A stretch of 49,086 nucleotides of DNA from an uncultured Bacilli bacterium (GCA_947628965.1 CANRBV010000006.1:1-49086), one strand, 5' to 3'. Shown: positions 11,324 to 19,032, counted from the stretch's first letter. Notes: a model not told the origin generated them from the sequence alone. Translations and numbers: made by a program.

Positions 11324-12556
11324 ATGAAACTAAGAAGATTTACAAAGAATAAGAAACAAAAACAAATTATAATTGGTGCAATAATAGCAATTGTACTTGT
11401 AATTGGTGGAATAACTCTATATCGAAGTTTTGCATTTTATGAAGAACATGCTTCTTTTAATGTATTAAAAGGAAGGGTACCTGAATTTTATAATGATGTA
11501 ACTTTCGCTTTAGTGGTGGATGGCAAGACGGCTGAAGAAATACCTAAAAAAAGTGATAATTATGCTGTAGAAGTAAAATGTGATAAAGGAAATGGAATAT
11601 GGAAGCAAGATATATGGGGAGTAGAAGTAACAGAATTAGAAGAAAAAACGATAAAATGTAATATAGAATTTATAACATTAGAAGAAAATAAAGTAATTAA
11701 TTTTGATTATACAGGAAAAGAAGAAATCATTAGTTTACCTAAAGGAAAATATAGATTAGAAGTTTGGGGAGCTCAAGGAGCTACTAAGGGAGCTAACCAA
11801 ACCGAGAAAGAGCAACAAGGAGGTTTAGGAGGATACTCAGTTGGAGAGTATACTACCAATGAGGGCAAATTATTATATATTAACGTAGGAGGAAAAGGTT
11901 CAGAACATAAAGATAGTAACGGTAATGCCTTAGCTGGATATAATGGTGGAGGTACAGGTTCAACTCCAGAACTTTTACATGGTGGAGGAGCTACACATAT
12001 TGCTTTAGTTTCAGGTTTATTATCCACTTTAAAAGAAAAAAACAATGATATTTTAATTGTTGCTGGTGGTGGAGGAGCAAATGGTGAAAAAGGAATAAAT
12101 TCAGATACTAATAAATATCCATTTGGAGGTTCTGGTGGAGGAGCCCAAGGGGGTGACGGAATTAATAGTGATAAAGGATGGCCAACTAGATTTTATGGAA
12201 CTGGAGCTACTCAAGAGAGTGGTGGAAATAATACAGATAATACATCATATGGAAAAGGAGACTTTGGTTTAGGCTCAGATTTCTATAATAATGGATATAG
12301 TGGCGCTGGTGGAGGCGGTGGCTACTATGGTGGCGGAGGTTCCAACCGTAATCACGCTGGAGCTGGAGGAGGATCTGGATACATTGGAAATAGCCTTTTA
12401 ACTAGTAAAGAGATGTGGTGTTATAATTGTGAAAAAAATGAAGATGAAAATTCCAAAACCAACTCGACTACAAATGTAAGCAATGAAGCCAAAAGTCAAT
12501 ATGCTAAACAAGGTGATGGTTACGCCAAAATTACATATTTAGGCAATATAAATTGA
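11324..12556 (+). CDS. Anchored extracytoplasmic glycine-rich protein (PF12810-like)
   Basis: A 410-residue protein with a basic N-terminus, one anchor at about residues 14-34, and an outer region. Residues about 40-115 form a small beta domain (FNVLKGRVPEF..DVTFALVVDG) that I associate with gut Firmicutes surface proteins. From about 120 onward a Gly-rich region resembles the ALK/LTK-type glycine-rich domain. It starts YRLEVWGAQGA, continues with LYINVGGKG, AGYNGGGTG and GGGATHIA, and then has many GGGG clusters. One CYNC pair lies near the end. A role at the cell surface is inferred; no enzyme motif is seen. It ends with UGA and has its own consensus promoter beside a divergent regulator. 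Confidence 0.78.
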   Translation: MKLRRFTKNKKQKQIIIGAIIAIVLVIGGITLYRSFAFYEEHASFNVLKGRVPEFYNDVTFALVVDGKTAEEIPKKSDNYAVEVKCDKGNGIWKQDIWGVEVTELEEKTIKCNIEFITLEENKVINFDYTGKEEIISLPKGKYRLEVWGAQGATKGANQTEKEQQGGLGGYSVGEYTTNEGKLLYINVGGKGSEHKDSNGNALAGYNGGGTGSTPELLHGGGATHIALVSGLLSTLKEKNNDILIVAGGGGANGEKGINSDTNKYPFGGSGGGAQGGDGINSDKGWPTRFYGTGATQESGGNNTDNTSYGKGDFGLGSDFYNNGYSGAGGGGGYYGGGGSNRNHAGAGGGSGYIGNSLLTSKEMWCYNCEKNEDENSKTNSTTNVSNEAKSQYAKQGDGYAKITYLGNIN

Positions 12557-13724: not shown

Positions 13725-14295
13725 TAAATTATGGGGGTTTTTTATCATTGTTGGAATTTTATTTACTCTTTTCATGGGAAATATTGAAAGTTTAAATGAT
13801 ACTATTCTAACAAGTGCTACAAATGGGGTAGAAATGGTTTTAGATTTACTACCTATTATCGTTTTATGGTCAGGAATTATGAAAATTGCTGAGAAAAGTG
13901 GTCTTTTATATAAAGTAGGTAATTTAGTAAAACCTCTTTTACATAAGTTATTTCCTTCTTTAAAAAAGGATAGTAAAGCTTTAGGATATATTACATCAAA
14001 TATTGTTGCAAATGCAATGGGACTTGGTAGTGCTGCAACACCATTTGGCTTAAAAGCAATGGAAGAAATGCAAAAAGAAAATGAAAAAAAAGAAGAAGCA
14101 AGTGATGCTATGATTACATTCTTAGTTTTAAACACGAGTGGAGTTACAATTGTACCAACAACAGTGATTGCTTTAAGAATGATGTATCATTCAGCTAATC
14201 CTGAAGAAATTATTATAACGGCTATACTTGCTACTATCTGTTCAAGTATAGCGGGACTTACTTTAGATTATTTTAGAAGGAGAAAAAATAGATGA
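13717..14295 (+). CDS. spmA: Spore maturation protein A
   Basis: A polytopic membrane protein of 192 residues with the nucleoside-recognition (Gate) domain of SpmA. ATNGVEMVLDLLPIIVLWSGIMKIAEKSGL, LGYITSNIVANAMGLGSAATPFGLKAMEEM and FLVLNTSGVTIVPTTVIALRM are characteristic stretches. In Bacillus SpmA acts with SpmB and DacB in dehydrating the spore core. Four or five hydrophobic helices are seen. It overlaps the carboxypeptidase gene by 8 nt and spmB by 4 nt, so translation is coupled. Confidence 0.95.
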   Translation: MINKLWGFFIIVGILFTLFMGNIESLNDTILTSATNGVEMVLDLLPIIVLWSGIMKIAEKSGLLYKVGNLVKPLLHKLFPSLKKDSKALGYITSNIVANAMGLGSAATPFGLKAMEEMQKENEKKEEASDAMITFLVLNTSGVTIVPTTVIALRMMYHSANPEEIIITAILATICSSIAGLTLDYFRRRKNR

Positions 14296-14810
14296 ATTTA
14301 ATTTCTAAAATGATAATTCCTTTATTTGTACTTTTTGTTGTCTTTTATGGATATAAGAAAAAAATTATGATTTATGATACCTTTTTAGAGGGTGCAAAAG
14401 AGGGACTAATTACTGTTTTTCATATTTTTCCAGCTATTTTGGCAATGGTATTTGCTATCAATATTTTTTTAAATAGTCACATATTAGAAATTTTATTTAG
14501 CACTTTTACACCTTTTTTTGAAAAAATAAATTTACCTATACAGATATTACCTATGGCTTTTGTTAGACCTATTTCAGGAACAGCATCTTTAGCTATTATG
14601 AATGATATTTTTGCTAATTTTGGTCCTGATTCTTTTGTTGGAAGACTTGCTTCAACTCTTCAAGGATGTACCGATACAACAATTTATGTACTGGCTCTTT
14701 ATTTTGGAAGTATTAAAATTAATAAAACACGCTATGCACTTTCTACTGGTTTATTTGCTGATTTAATAGGAATAATTGCTAGTTTTATTATTGTTCATCT
14801 TATTTTCTAA
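14292..14810 (+). CDS. spmB: Spore maturation protein B
   Basis: The 172-residue partner of SpmA, with the second Gate half: FLEGAKEGLITVFHIFPAILAMVFAINIF, MAFVRPISGTASLAIMNDIF and STLQGCTDTTIYVLALYFGSI. It starts with an ATGA overlap with spmA. Membrane helices cover most of its length. SpmA and SpmB are thought to act together, probably in transport across the forespore envelope. No clear terminator follows; the next operon has its own promoter 24 nt downstream. Confidence 0.95.
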   Translation: MNLISKMIIPLFVLFVVFYGYKKKIMIYDTFLEGAKEGLITVFHIFPAILAMVFAINIFLNSHILEILFSTFTPFFEKINLPIQILPMAFVRPISGTASLAIMNDIFANFGPDSFVGRLASTLQGCTDTTIYVLALYFGSIKINKTRYALSTGLFADLIGIIASFIIVHLIF

Positions 14811-14833
14811 AATACCCCAAAATTGCGTAAAAC

Positions 14834-14861
14834 TTGACTTTTAAGTAAAGAGTGATATTAT
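14834..14861 (+). promoter_or_regulatory. Sigma-A promoter of the amidoligase operon
   Basis: TTGACT (14834-14839), a 16-nt spacer and TATTAT (14856-14861) precede the four-gene operon. The implied leader is about 55 nt long. Confidence 0.65.
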
Positions 14862-14882
14862 ATTACTCACGAAAACCTATCC

Positions 14883-14899
14883 CAAAGTAATGTACTTTG
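14883..14899 (+). promoter_or_regulatory. Inverted repeat in the leader of the amidoligase operon
   Basis: CAAAGTA and TACTTTG form a perfect 7-bp inverted repeat around ATG, between the promoter and the AGGGGG ribosome site. It could be an operator or a leader hairpin. No T run follows, so it is not a simple terminator. Confidence 0.5.
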
Positions 14900-14921
14900 A
14901 AAATAATTAGGGGGATAAAAA

Positions 14922-15794
14922 ATGAGTCATAGAAAAACAAAAAAAGAAAAGATATTGGCACAACAAAGAGGTAAAAATCGCAATCAACAAATAAAAGAAT
15001 TAAAACAATTAAAATATGATTTGGAATTAAAAATTGCTGAACGAAAAAGAGAAGATTTTAAACAGTTAAATATAAGAAATTTAAAAGTATTTACTAATAC
15101 ATGTAATTTTCTAGCTCCATTTGTTATTTCAGCTGGTGTTACAGTTGGAGCATTCAGTCTATGTGGTGGAGGATTTCCATTTCTTTCTGATGAGATAATA
15201 AAATATAAAACATATAATCTTGATTTTGAAACAAAAGGTTATGTAACAATGTATGAAGAATATAGAACAAATAGCTGGTTTGATGAATCTTTGCCTGAAA
15301 ATAGTTTAACTATATATAGTCCATGGGAGAAAAAAGATAATCAATATGTAAGATTTAAAAGAGAATATAATATAGATTCATTAACAACTTTAGATTTATA
15401 TAATGCAGTATTAGATGAAGATTATGAATATATTGCACAAAATTTAAAAGATTATCAAGAAGAAAAACAAGTAGTTAGTGAAATTGATTCTAAAATACCA
15501 AACGATTATTTTTTTGAAGCAAGCTTACACATGTTAGATAAAGAAGATATATTAAAATATAATGAAACAGATTTAAAAAACATAGTAATTACTATTATAG
15601 AATTAGTATTAGGATTAGTACTTGGTGGAGCAGTAGCTTATTTTAGAAATTATAAATATTTATATTCTTTAGAAAGAATAAATGATAGTTATCGTTGTAA
15701 GATAGAAGCTACAAAATTAATGCAACAAAAACTTTATGAAACAAATGAAAAAATTTTATCTCTTACTAAAAGTAAGGGGGGTAAAATCAAGTGA
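14922..15794 (+). CDS. Two-TM membrane protein, first of a paralogous pair
   Basis: I do not recognise a named family. The 290 residues comprise a very basic, coiled-coil-like N-terminus (about 1-58), TM1 at 62-82, an outer domain of about 135 residues, TM2 at 220-240 and a charged helical tail. It is a diverged paralogue of the next product. Shared features are a PF[VI]I..G segment at TM1, then PF..DE just outside the membrane, a W-K-D-Y-R....Y pattern in the outer domain, TM2 and a basic tail. The outer domain suggests sensing or presentation at the envelope. It heads the amidoligase operon and overlaps the next gene by 4 nt. Confidence 0.8.
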   Translation: MSHRKTKKEKILAQQRGKNRNQQIKELKQLKYDLELKIAERKREDFKQLNIRNLKVFTNTCNFLAPFVISAGVTVGAFSLCGGGFPFLSDEIIKYKTYNLDFETKGYVTMYEEYRTNSWFDESLPENSLTIYSPWEKKDNQYVRFKREYNIDSLTTLDLYNAVLDEDYEYIAQNLKDYQEEKQVVSEIDSKIPNDYFFEASLHMLDKEDILKYNETDLKNIVITIIELVLGLVLGGAVAYFRNYKYLYSLERINDSYRCKIEATKLMQQKLYETNEKILSLTKSKGGKIK

Positions 15795-16636
15795 ACAAAA
15801 CTAAGTTAGTAAAAAAGTTAACTAATGATGTAAAAAATTTAGAAAATAAAATAGAGCATAGAAAATTATATAATATTAGAAATTACATAATAAAAGCTTT
15901 GATTAAAAGTGGAATAGCAGTAGATTACGCACTTCCTTTTATTATAATGGCAATTATATTAGCATATGGTGCAGCTGAAACAGGCGATTTACCATTTCAT
16001 ATTGATGAAATGGTAGAGAAAGCACATATAGAAAGTATTGATACATCAAATGGTACACATATAGAGCATATTTCTAATGATTTTGATTGTGATGAAGAAA
16101 TTATTGAACATTCTACTGGCTGGATCAAAAACGATAAAAATCTATATGAAAGAACTGTAACTTCTTATAGATTGAGTGATGAAATTGATTTATCTGATAC
16201 TGAAAGAATATTATCTATGACAAAAGAAGAAATTGAAAAAATATTAGTAGTAACTAATGTGAAAACAATATCTAAAAATACTTTAACTCCTGAAGATGAA
16301 ATGTATGTTGATGATGCTCTTATTATTATCAACCATAAAGTATCAGAAGATGATACGATTACAAGACGAGAAACTACTGGAGAAAATGTATTACATTCTA
16401 TATTATATATCGTTTCATCTGTTTATTTAGGGGCTTCTTTAAGAGGCATAGGGAAAGTTTTTATTAAAACAAATTTTAGAGATATATTGAGAGAATATGA
16501 ACCATCATTTGGACCTATAAATAAAGATGAACTAGAGGCTATGAAGAGAATGTTAGAAGTAAAAAAAGAAAATTTATCTATGATTAGTGAAACTAAAAAT
16601 AATAGCAATTATTCTTATAAATTAAGAAAACTATAA
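15791..16636 (+). CDS. Two-TM membrane protein, second of a paralogous pair
   Basis: A 281-residue protein with the same plan as its upstream neighbour: basic helical N-terminus, TM1 at about 41-61, acidic outer domain 65-198, TM2 about 200-219 and a charged helical tail. LPFIIMAIILAYGAAETGDLPFHIDE lines up with APFVISAGVTVGAFSLCGGGFPFLSDE of the first protein, and GWIKNDKNLYERTVTSYRLSD with PWEKKDNQYVRFKREYNID. The GTG start at 15791 overlaps the previous UGA and is supported by AAGGGGGG. The pair may form a hetero-oligomer; that is an inference from paralogy and coupling. No family name is known to me. Confidence 0.8.
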   Translation: MNKTKLVKKLTNDVKNLENKIEHRKLYNIRNYIIKALIKSGIAVDYALPFIIMAIILAYGAAETGDLPFHIDEMVEKAHIESIDTSNGTHIEHISNDFDCDEEIIEHSTGWIKNDKNLYERTVTSYRLSDEIDLSDTERILSMTKEEIEKILVVTNVKTISKNTLTPEDEMYVDDALIIINHKVSEDDTITRRETTGENVLHSILYIVSSVYLGASLRGIGKVFIKTNFRDILREYEPSFGPINKDELEAMKRMLEVKKENLSMISETKNNSNYSYKLRKL

Positions 16637-16650
16637 AGGAGTGTACTATA

Positions 16651-17658
16651 ATGGAGAAAAAAATTGTCGCTTTAGATAGTAATGACTTGTTTACACTTTT
16701 TAGAGGTATAGATTTGCAAGAACTAATAGTGCAAATTGAAAATTATTTTTTAGAATATAGAGAACAGTTAGATTTACCTAATAACTTAACATTTGGAGTA
16801 GAATTAGAATATGAAAAAGTTTCAAGAAAAACTATTAGTAATTATGTAGAGAAAAATTTGTATGATTGGAATTCCAAAAAAGATGGTTCATTAGAATCTG
16901 GTGGTGAAGTTATATCACCAGTAATGACAGATCAAAAAAAATATTGGCAAGAATTAAAAAAAATATGTGATTTTTTATCTAAGAAAAAAGCTGACACCAT
17001 GCATAATGCAGGTGGACATATTCATTTAGGAGTATGTATTTTAGGTGATGATGTAGAAGCTTGGAGACAATTTCTAAAATTATATATGATCTATGAAAGT
17101 GTAATATTTAGATTTATATATGGCGATAAAATTGGTGGTAGAAAAAAACTTTATAAATATGCACCTCCAATATCTGATAAATTATATAATTATTTATCTT
17201 TGATAAATCAAGCTAAAAATATAATGGAAATTAGATATTCATTACCAACTGATGATAGATATTATGCATTAAATTTTTGCAATGTTGACTTTTATGATCC
17301 TAAAACTTCAACTCATAAAAATACTTTAGAGTTTAGAAGTCCAAATGCTTCAACTAATGCTGTTATTTGGCAAAATAATATAAATACATTTGCAAAAATG
17401 CTTATAGCTTCAAAGACAAAAGTAATGGATGAAGAATTTTTAGATTATAAATTAAAAAATGAATATTTTACTTATTCTGGAAATGAACAATTATATAATA
17501 ATATATGTTTAAAAAATGCTCTAGAATTTTCAGATTTAGTATTTGATAATAATTTGGATAAAATTTATTTTTTAAGACAATATTTAAAAGATTTTCAAGA
17601 TAATTATGGAATAAAAACAATAGTTAAAGCCAAAAAAGCCAAAAAATTTATTAAGTAG
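16651..17658 (+). CDS. Amidoligase_2-type (glutamine-synthetase-fold) ligase
   Basis: A 335-residue predicted ATP-dependent amidoligase of the PF12224 type, enzymes expected to form amide bonds between amino groups and carboxylates. Core motifs occur in family order: FGVELEYE (48-55), KDGSLESGGEVISP (77-90), GGHIHLG (121-127), RYYALNF (203-209) and the Mg/ATP-site-like NTLEFRSPN (224-232). The N-terminal 45 residues and the C-terminal about 80 are helical extensions. The substrate is unknown. AAGGAGTG precedes the ATG 14 nt after the membrane-protein pair, and a cyclotransferase-like gene follows at once. This points to a matched make-and-remove chemistry for gamma-glutamyl or similar amides. 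Confidence 0.85.
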   Translation: MEKKIVALDSNDLFTLFRGIDLQELIVQIENYFLEYREQLDLPNNLTFGVELEYEKVSRKTISNYVEKNLYDWNSKKDGSLESGGEVISPVMTDQKKYWQELKKICDFLSKKKADTMHNAGGHIHLGVCILGDDVEAWRQFLKLYMIYESVIFRFIYGDKIGGRKKLYKYAPPISDKLYNYLSLINQAKNIMEIRYSLPTDDRYYALNFCNVDFYDPKTSTHKNTLEFRSPNASTNAVIWQNNINTFAKMLIASKTKVMDEEFLDYKLKNEYFTYSGNEQLYNNICLKNALEFSDLVFDNNLDKIYFLRQYLKDFQDNYGIKTIVKAKKAKKFIK

Positions 17659-17668
17659 GTGATTGATT

Positions 17669-18142
17669 TTGAAAAAATATTATTTGGCCTATGGTAGTAA
17701 TTTAAATTTATATCAAATGGCATATAGATGTAGGTCTGCTAAACCGATAGGAAGTATAAATATAAAAGATTATAGATTAGTTTATAAGGGTAGTGCAGAT
17801 CAATATTCTTATTTAACTTTAGAACAAAGTAAGAATTCGATAGTTCCACTTGGATTGTTTGAGGTATCTTATAGTGACATTTTATCATTAGATGTATATG
17901 AAGGTTATCCAACATTTTATTCAAAATACTATATTCCTATCAAAATAAATGGAAAGGTTAAAAAAGCAATTATTTATATAATGAATAAAAATTTCGATTA
18001 TTATTTGCCATCAGAAGAATATATAGATATATGTAACAAAGGATATGAACATTTTGGCTTTGATAAAAATATACTTAAACAGGCATTAGAAGATACAAAA
18101 GAGAATATGCCTAAAAAGAAAATAAAAAAATCTCAAAGTTAA
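17669..18142 (+). CDS. Gamma-glutamylcyclotransferase-like (GGCT/AIG2 fold) protein
   Basis: A GGCT-fold protein of about 157 residues. The nucleotide-like loop YLAYGSNLN is at 5-13, the middle strand IKDYRLVYKGSADQY follows, and the catalytic Glu falls in LDVYEGYPTFYSKYY at about E78. Family enzymes release gamma-glutamyl amines as 5-oxoproline. The TTG at 17669 is the best start: AGGTG lies 7 nt before it and the product begins MKKYYLAYGSN as the family does. An in-frame TTG at 17663 is too near the ribosome site. The lysine-rich C-terminal tail is probably disordered. It is the last gene of the operon, next to the amidoligase. Confidence 0.87.
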   Translation: MKKYYLAYGSNLNLYQMAYRCRSAKPIGSINIKDYRLVYKGSADQYSYLTLEQSKNSIVPLGLFEVSYSDILSLDVYEGYPTFYSKYYIPIKINGKVKKAIIYIMNKNFDYYLPSEEYIDICNKGYEHFGFDKNILKQALEDTKENMPKKKIKKSQS

Positions 18143-18169
18143 AAAACTATAAGAAATTTAAAATTTCAC

Positions 18170-18198
18170 TAATCTAATTTAATAAAAGATTATTTTTT
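18170..18198 (+). terminator. Weak terminator of the amidoligase operon
   Basis: TAATCT (18170-18175) pairs with AGATTA (18187-18192), followed by six T. The stem is all but one pair A-T, so termination may be incomplete. Confidence 0.4.
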
Positions 18199-18244
18199 AG
18201 AGAATTATCGTAAAATAATAATATAGTAATTAAACGTCCACAAT

Positions 18245-18273
18245 TTGACATTATATTAAGAATATGATATAGT
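18245..18273 (+). promoter_or_regulatory. Consensus sigma-A promoter
   Basis: TTGACA (18245-18250) and TATAGT (18268-18273) are exactly 17 nt apart, about 36 nt before the glucosaminidase start codon. Confidence 0.85.
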
Positions 18274-18309
18274 AGATATCGTTCCGCAATAAAAAAGAGG
18301 TAGAGAAAA

Positions 18310-18993
18310 ATGAAAAAATTACCGTCGGTTAAGGCCATAATGGCCATAACCACGATTCTAGTTGTTAACATCTGTAGTGTAAAAACTTTAGATGGTACAA
18401 AAAGTGTGAATGATAGCCTAGCTGTTGTTCCAAATAAATCTGTATTGATAAGTAAAATTAGTAATACAAATTTAATTAGTAATCTAGAGGCTAATAAAAA
18501 AATATTAGCTATCAATGAATACACAAATAAAAATAAAGAAAAAGAAGTCATAGAAGAAAAAGTGGAAAAAGAAATTGTCTATGATGGAATGACTTTAGAA
18601 GAATTAGCAAATAAGTTAGACAAAAACTTAAAATCAACTTTAAAAGGGTATGGTATGGTTTTTGCCCAAAATTCAATAAAATATGGAGTTGATCCTTATC
18701 TTGCTTTAGCAATTGTATTGCATGAAACGGGTTGTGCATCTGGCACATGCAGTACGTTAGCTAAAAAATGTAATAATATTGGCGGTATGAAAGGAAGCAA
18801 TCATTGTGGAAATACTTCCTATGCTAAATTTAGTTCATTAAATAGTGGTATAGAGGCTTTCTTTAAAAATTTATCGAAAAATTATTATAAGAAAGGTTTG
18901 ACAACTCCTGAATTAATAGGGAAAAAATATGCGGAAAGTAAAACTTGGGCATCAAGAGTAAATTACTATATCAAAGTGATAAAAAATAGTTAA
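18310..18993 (+). CDS. Exported glucosaminidase-domain peptidoglycan hydrolase
   Basis: A 227-residue protein with an N-terminal hydrophobic segment (about 8-24), an acidic/lysine-rich linker (60-95), and a C-terminal lysozyme-like glucosaminidase domain (about 108-226). The domain contains SIKYGVDPYLALAIVLHETGC with the probable catalytic Glu139, CNNIGGMKG, YAKFSSLNSGIEAFFKNL and TWASRVNYYIKVI. Cys142, 147, 154 and 166 could form disulfides. Such enzymes cut the glycan strand of peptidoglycan. It has its own promoter and a strong terminator, so it is monocistronic. A GAGGTAGAG site precedes the ATG. Confidence 0.85.
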   Translation: MKKLPSVKAIMAITTILVVNICSVKTLDGTKSVNDSLAVVPNKSVLISKISNTNLISNLEANKKILAINEYTNKNKEKEVIEEKVEKEIVYDGMTLEELANKLDKNLKSTLKGYGMVFAQNSIKYGVDPYLALAIVLHETGCASGTCSTLAKKCNNIGGMKGSNHCGNTSYAKFSSLNSGIEAFFKNLSKNYYKKGLTTPELIGKKYAESKTWASRVNYYIKVIKNS

Positions 18994-19032
18994 TGTTTAA
19001 CGAAAAAGAAATATAGTGGTATATTTCAATTT

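Follow-up and report, generated by a model that had tools for sequence, protein, structure and literature searches.

Four abutting genes on the plus strand at 14922–18142 of the window (the whole 49,086-nucleotide stretch of uncultured Bacilli DNA that was analysed) encode two related two-TM membrane proteins (A and B), an Amidoligase_2 enzyme and a GGACT-type gamma-glutamyl cyclotransferase (GGCT), and comparison with related genomes indicates that this operon is a recent horizontal insertion. We read it as a horizontally mobile, membrane-tethered amidoligase module; with the substrate and switch proposed below included, our confidence in this reading is about evenly balanced. As far as our searches go, four things are new: the family of two-TM partners, the fusion of such a partner with the ligase, the mobile form on the chromosome, and the connection with promoter inversion. 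The features of the locus are as follows.

~14817 to ~18228, + strand: insertion separating spmB from the glucosaminidase gene, with bounds from the empty site of locus L137 that are good to a few nucleotides
14834–14861, + strand: predicted sigma-70 type promoter TTGACT-16-TATTAT, directed toward the operon, with boxes that recur in L014, L201 and L025
14881–14901, + strand: right inverted-repeat site CCCAAAGTAATGTACTTTGAA, palindromic, 21 bp, in the leader of A; consensus CTCAAAGT-N5-ACTTTGAG
14922–15794, + strand: two-TM protein A, 290 residues, hydrophobic segments near residues 63–81 and 221–239 with an acidic domain between them
15791–16636, + strand: two-TM protein B, 281 residues, GTG start, hydrophobic segments near residues 40–58 and 199–217
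16651–17658, + strand: Amidoligase_2 (glutamine-synthetase-like) enzyme, 335 residues, assigned from Pfam, motifs and fold
17663–18142 (likely start 17669), + strand: GGACT/AIG2-type gamma-glutamyl cyclotransferase, TTG starts, assigned from Pfam and PHROG
18132–18153, + strand: repeat-like site CTCAAAGTTAAAAAACTATAAG of degenerate sequence, overlapping the cyclotransferase gene at its 3' end

The genes are closely packed, with a 4 nt overlap between A and B, a gap of 14 nt between B and the ligase and a gap of 4 nt between the ligase and the cyclotransferase, and they look like one transcription unit. The open reading frames, strand, spacing and conserved motifs confirm the four-gene operon proposed in a preliminary description of this DNA. 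The genes are genuine and conserved: dN/dS between the two closest copies (G000 and G119) is 0.43, 0.37, 0.26 and 0.36 across the four genes, which indicates purifying selection on all of them. The single promoter at 14834–14861 is one of 34 promoter-like sites, with 39 expected by chance; that it drives the operon, as first suggested, is supported by its conservation in L014, L201 and L025 and in a block common to a different genus, which begins at 14831. Rfam gave no match within 14000–19000. Gene calls at the related loci are mechanical open reading frames.

The insertion was delimited by comparison within the genus, where spmB was detected in 22 of 22 genomes and 19 loci besides that of the window were compared. 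In 16 of the 18 readable congeners spmB is followed immediately by the glucosaminidase gene; L141 and L145 have a different gene at this position, and the L150 locus is truncated at a contig end. At L137 the empty-site junction reads ...TAAAATACCC joined directly to ATAAACGTCCACAATTTGACA, and by this comparison the inserted DNA falls between TAAAATACCC and TAAACGTCC. The DNA block common to the window and the G119 locus spans 14831–18139, so that the extent of 14834–18198 given earlier required correction at its end. Between the window's genome and G119, which belongs to another genus, the operon has a dS of 0.20–0.26 versus 0.69 for rplM, 0.89 for rpsI and 1.13 for spmA; this low divergence relative to the core genes, together with the empty site in congeners, points to recent horizontal acquisition. 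The empty-site and transfer results assume correct assembly; the related genomes are titled as metagenome assemblies, and that of the window is spread over 57 contigs, with the insert well inside its 49-kb contig. Attachment sites of an integrative element were considered and rejected: a search gave no convincing direct repeats (matches of 14–16 nt were judged to be chance in AT-rich DNA), and a tRNA was located near the recombinase in L071 only.

The membrane proteins and the ligase are associated well beyond the window. Matches to A were found in 10 of 193 family genomes, the window's own included; one of the other nine lies inside an unrelated gene, and of the eight that are left, the two-TM gene has the ligase as its immediate neighbor in seven, one of which (G025) has a broken ligase frame. 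A scan of public genomes with a ligase profile yielded 80 loci, nearly all titled as metagenome-assembled genomes of uncultured Bacilli, Tenericutes, Mollicutes, Erysipelotrichaceae or similar. Counts were made within L024–L103 plus the window, which guards against double counting; the same genome appears under two locus names in L014/L024, L015/L050, L016/L071 and L029/L124. One or two two-TM genes lie directly upstream of the ligase at about half of the 80 loci (gut Bacilli), with a median of 4.5 nt from the two-TM stop to the ligase start (36 loci). All four genes are found in the window and in L024, L025, L028, L030, L034 and L035 (n = 7; L034 and L035 are near-identical), in L029 a two-TM/ligase fusion gene precedes GGCT, and many of the remaining loci combine the ligase with a single two-TM gene. 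The co-occurrence in other genomes that the preliminary description proposed as a check is thus borne out, with the cyclotransferase confined to one clade. The distance matrices of the two-TM proteins and the ligases agree closely (Mantel r = 0.93, with 0 of 2000 permutations as high), though some correlation is expected from shared ancestry alone. A two-TM gene was not detected upstream in 33 of 81 rows of the ligase tree, in six of which the contig ends there, suggesting that some ligases act without a two-TM protein or with an undetected partner.

The best functional evidence tying the membrane protein to the ligase comes from two fusions. The L029 fusion (609 residues) contains a complete two-TM protein (profile positions 9–272) with the ligase in frame after it. 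In the L084 fusion (514 residues), profile positions 10–74 are joined directly to 191–276, ahead of the ligase; the two TM segments and the cytosolic portions are kept and the outer domain is missing. On the ligase tree the two fusions occupy separate regions; this is a quick tree in which many branches are weakly supported. The loss in L084 suggests that the outer domain is not essential to the module, and the constant part would be a membrane anchor with a cytosolic ligase. The membrane link suggested previously is therefore upheld by two separately placed fusions, and its association with acidic outer domains does not extend to L084. The constant anchor and the fusions indicate the probable reaction site, and the fusions are small self-contained constructs for testing.

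A and B are paralogs, as had been proposed (BLASTP E = 2e-7, 24% identity), and each has an acidic middle domain with K+R/D+E counts of 15/30 in A and 13/34 in B. In the two-TM family, the median net charge is +7.5 for the N-terminal part, −12 for the middle and +4 for the C-terminal part. The positive flanks and acidic middle, together with the position of the ligase C-terminal to TM2 in the fusions, argue for an N-in/C-in anchor and a cytosolic ligase; A and B would accordingly expose an acidic, beta-rich domain on the outside of the membrane. The family has no match in Pfam or NCBIfam and no sequence match in the PDB. An AlphaFold2 model of B (mean pLDDT 88.4) gave no PDB fold match at E ≤ 0.001 and nothing confident; a hit to a viral adsorption protein of 1223 residues (E = 4e-4) was discounted, with TM-scores of 0.22/0.09. 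In the order and phylum draws, convincing matches to the two-TM profile were confined to the window's family. Two-TM genes without a ligase are also known, at L156, L157, L160 and L161; one of these ligase-free genes belongs to the window's own genome.

The ligase matches Pfam Amidoligase_2 (PF12224) with E = 3.8e-15 and 56.9 bits (curated cut-off 22). Its model has a pLDDT of 92.5, with glutamine synthetase and YbdK as the top Foldseek matches; the sequence profile found no true relative in the PDB. The active-site pattern ExE, E, HxH, ExR is conserved, with E51, E53, E86, H125, E227 and R229 invariant and H123 present in at least 90% of 60 aligned ligase sequences. We take these residues to be catalytic from knowledge of the glutamine synthetase family, and the enzyme is predicted to perform ATP-dependent amide ligation. 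Amidoligase_2 enzymes as a group have varied substrates. A C-terminal motif (D295, N301, D303, K304, F307, L308, Q310, Y311 and K313) is also invariant in the ligase subfamily (60 sequences). The window ligase shares its predicted fold and acidic/His/Arg active-site pattern with YbdK, glutamine synthetase and PafA/Dop, but differs from them in this motif and in its coupling to a membrane protein. A phage origin of the ligase was rejected, as its phage matches are only 22–26% identical and a pattern scan of IMG/VR found no ligase relative.

The cyclotransferase matches Pfam GGACT (PF06094; E = 3.4e-9, 37.7 bits, cut-off 22.8) and PHROG 2520 (E = 2.7e-41). Its AYGSN and YE[GC]YP motifs are present in all 11 of the ligase-linked GGCT copies, and the glutamate of the latter is presumably the catalytic residue. 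Both enzymes thus keep conserved active-site motifs, in line with the preliminary description. GGCT is restricted to one part of the ligase tree and is absent at most ligase loci, which makes it an accessory rather than a core component; a writer/eraser pair is likewise not the core of the module.

The leader of the operon resembles one half of an invertible element. In L014, L201 and L025 the promoter is located between two inverted repeats, and G322 (L201) and G119 (L014) have the same leader as the window with both repeats retained. The left repeat was not found in the window, where the best upstream candidate has 6 mismatches in 16 positions; its absence is explained by an insertion that starts inside the element. 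With one repeat left and the promoter facing the operon, the window promoter is, judged from these leaders, the remnant of an invertible promoter and should be locked ON. Sites similar to 18132–18153 directly follow GGCT in L014 (10776) and L025 (9501), and the window site is possibly the remnant of a downstream element. Neither the recent insertion nor this apparent descent from an invertible switch had been noticed in the earlier account, whose interpretation as a whole is partly supported.

At related loci the sites come in pairs with ~135–178 bp between them. Such pairs precede several ligase operons as well as other genes and often stand just behind a tyrosine recombinase gene; the recombinases beside them belong to one family with the expected motifs. 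The members of a pair are inverted copies including their spacers, which on our reading match in 12 of 13 exact-core pairs from 385 order genomes. Exact-core pairs occur in 10 of these 385 genomes (the reversed control pattern in 1), and the same check on the phylum draw matched the window's own genome only, out of 149; IMG/VR gave 17 pattern matches, with matching spacers in only one. Paired repeats with reverse-complementary spacers surround the promoter in L014 (4 of 5 spacer letters), L201 and L025, and likewise in L045, L048, L050, L061 and L071, which have one two-TM gene. The promoter usually lies between the paired sites and is directed toward the cargo in some loci and away from it in others; a simple orientation score was ambiguous or contradictory for L014, L192, L193 and L201, loci in which a spurious −35 box arises from the repeat. 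L207 and L208 come from two close genomes that share the recombinase and the gene downstream; their elements are 95% identical when one is inverted and 52% identical directly, with colinear flanks that are 97–98% identical. These opposite orientations are direct evidence of inversion in a sister element with cargo other than amidoligase; both orientations were seen for this pair only and for no amidoligase-linked copy. An integron-like reading of the paired palindromes, which resemble attC sites, was rejected because each pair forms an inverted repeat flanking a promoter, with spacers that are reverse complements of each other, and because of the L207/L208 inversion.

With inverted repeats around a promoter, an adjacent tyrosine recombinase and one element in both orientations, the relatives' copies resemble invertons, from which the window copy differs in retaining only one repeat. 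Invertible promoters served by tyrosine recombinases are a familiar feature of gut bacteria, often near cell-surface genes (PMC11892184), and the RecV switch of C. difficile is one example (PMC7446863). The chromosomal version of the module ties the amidoligase family to promoter inversion, and none among the papers listed in a literature search joins 'amidoligase' with 'inverton' or 'phase variation'.

The statement in the preliminary description that amidoligase and GGCT genes are neighbors is correct for phages, for which amidoligase–GGCT (peptidoglycan-modification) cassettes were reportedly described by Iyer et al. in 2009. We know of no settled substrate for these phage pairs since then. 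Here we located the pair in two gut Heliusvirales phages. As in the phage cassettes, the Amidoligase_2 gene of the window is directly upstream of the GGCT gene, and the window GGCT is up to ~48% identical to those of gut phages. The window operon differs in being chromosomal (between spmB and the glucosaminidase gene) with no adjoining phage structural genes, in the added two-TM family with its fusions in relatives, in the absence of an ATP-grasp ligase and a glutamine amidotransferase from its four genes, and in the low identity of its ligase to the phage enzymes noted above.

In the proposed mechanism, A and B would be embedded in the cytoplasmic membrane, N and C termini both on the cytosolic side, and would hold the ligase at the inner face, where it would join a carboxylate to an amine using ATP. 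The product would most likely be an amide of gamma-glutamyl type, formed on a membrane-proximal target such as an envelope precursor, a lipid or a protein. In the one clade that has it, the cyclotransferase may remove or recycle gamma-glutamyl amides as 5-oxoproline, and in relatives promoter inversion by the tyrosine recombinase would switch the module. Against this proposal count the varied substrates of Amidoligase_2 enzymes, the tree rows lacking a two-TM gene, the two-TM genes lacking a ligase, the absence of GGCT from most loci, and an inversion seen directly only in an element with other cargo. The fuller version, in which the anchored ligase writes gamma-glutamyl amides and the cyclotransferase erases them in a phase-variable, mobile envelope modification of a class not described before, which varies the surface against phages or host factors, we regard as doubtful, at about one chance in four. 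A soluble route, in which the ligase makes a free gamma-glutamyl amide that GGCT later salvages, with the two-TM proteins serving in sensing or export, is improbable: YbdK and glutamine synthetase, the fold neighbors, act on small molecules, as GGCT enzymes by family knowledge do on soluble gamma-glutamyl compounds, but the membrane proteins have two TM helices and showed no fold like that of a transporter, and a ligase fused to an anchor without an outer domain fits tethering better than sensing or export.

A role in phage conflict, in which the membrane-held ligase alters the surface or a phage-entry component and so brings about superinfection exclusion or phage exclusion, is somewhat unlikely. 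Switching and mobility are typical of phage-conflict genes, and the operon is patchily distributed and horizontally transferred. The Heliusvirales amidoligase is just upstream of a GGCT related to that of the window, and for phage cassettes of this kind, changes to the cell wall or host surface and a block on superinfection by other phages have been suggested, in each case on the basis of Iyer and colleagues (PMC5498523, PMC11253131, PMC11318856). At four loci the gene adjoining the ligase module, itself under the same kind of promoter element, encodes a Tad4 (Thoeris inhibitor) domain by Pfam; one of the two matches tested is below the Pfam cut-off. Against this, none of the four window proteins matched any PADLOC family, clustering of flanking genes gave no recurrent defence neighbors and the IMG/VR scan found no ligase relative. 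That four unrelated genes are adjacent by chance in one genome could be entertained while the single window was all that was known; it is scarcely credible given the same order at the six other four-gene loci listed above, and at L029 with its first part fused, and the membrane–ligase pair at 36 loci.

The amidoligase gene is split over two frames at several related loci (L038, L040, L062 and L020/L093), which reflects either real decay or assembly errors. Variant layouts are seen at L079 (3021–5071), with a tandem pair of ligases, and at L059 (2550–3443), with an additional two-TM gene 3′ of the ligase. Members of the two-TM family also occur without an amidoligase, at G000:C2:7665–8453 in the window's genome (L156) and at L157, L160 and L161; the position of these genes is conserved among congeners and some form tandem pairs. 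The window's genome has a second, distant amidoligase (G000:C13:5232–6143; L023), which has no two-TM gene as a neighbour. It lies between an FtsW/RodA-like gene on one side and, one gene further out on the other, a MurG-like gene, as we take these to be from reading their sequences. In two Heliusvirales gut phages (L134, 3025–4468; L135, 2929–4471) a GGCT gene is located just 3′ of the amidoligase, with portal or terminase genes nearby.

The window's genome contains a further element of the promoter-flanking repeat family (G000:C17:17697–18013, equivalent to L191 9698–10014), which adjoins an intact tyrosine recombinase and whose cargo encodes two proteins, one AAA_5 and one DUF7192. A similar gene pair likewise follows an element of this family in another genome (G142:C7; L192). 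Proteins of ∼380 residues are encoded 3′ of repeat-family promoter elements at L025 (10372–11523), L045, L050, L061 and L195 and, where tested, display C-terminal similarity to the Thoeris inhibitor Tad4 family. Elsewhere in the window, the protein encoded at 11324–12556 matches the ALK/LTK glycine-rich domain (E = 1.2e-35) and its gene adjoins that of a D-Ala-D-Ala carboxypeptidase.
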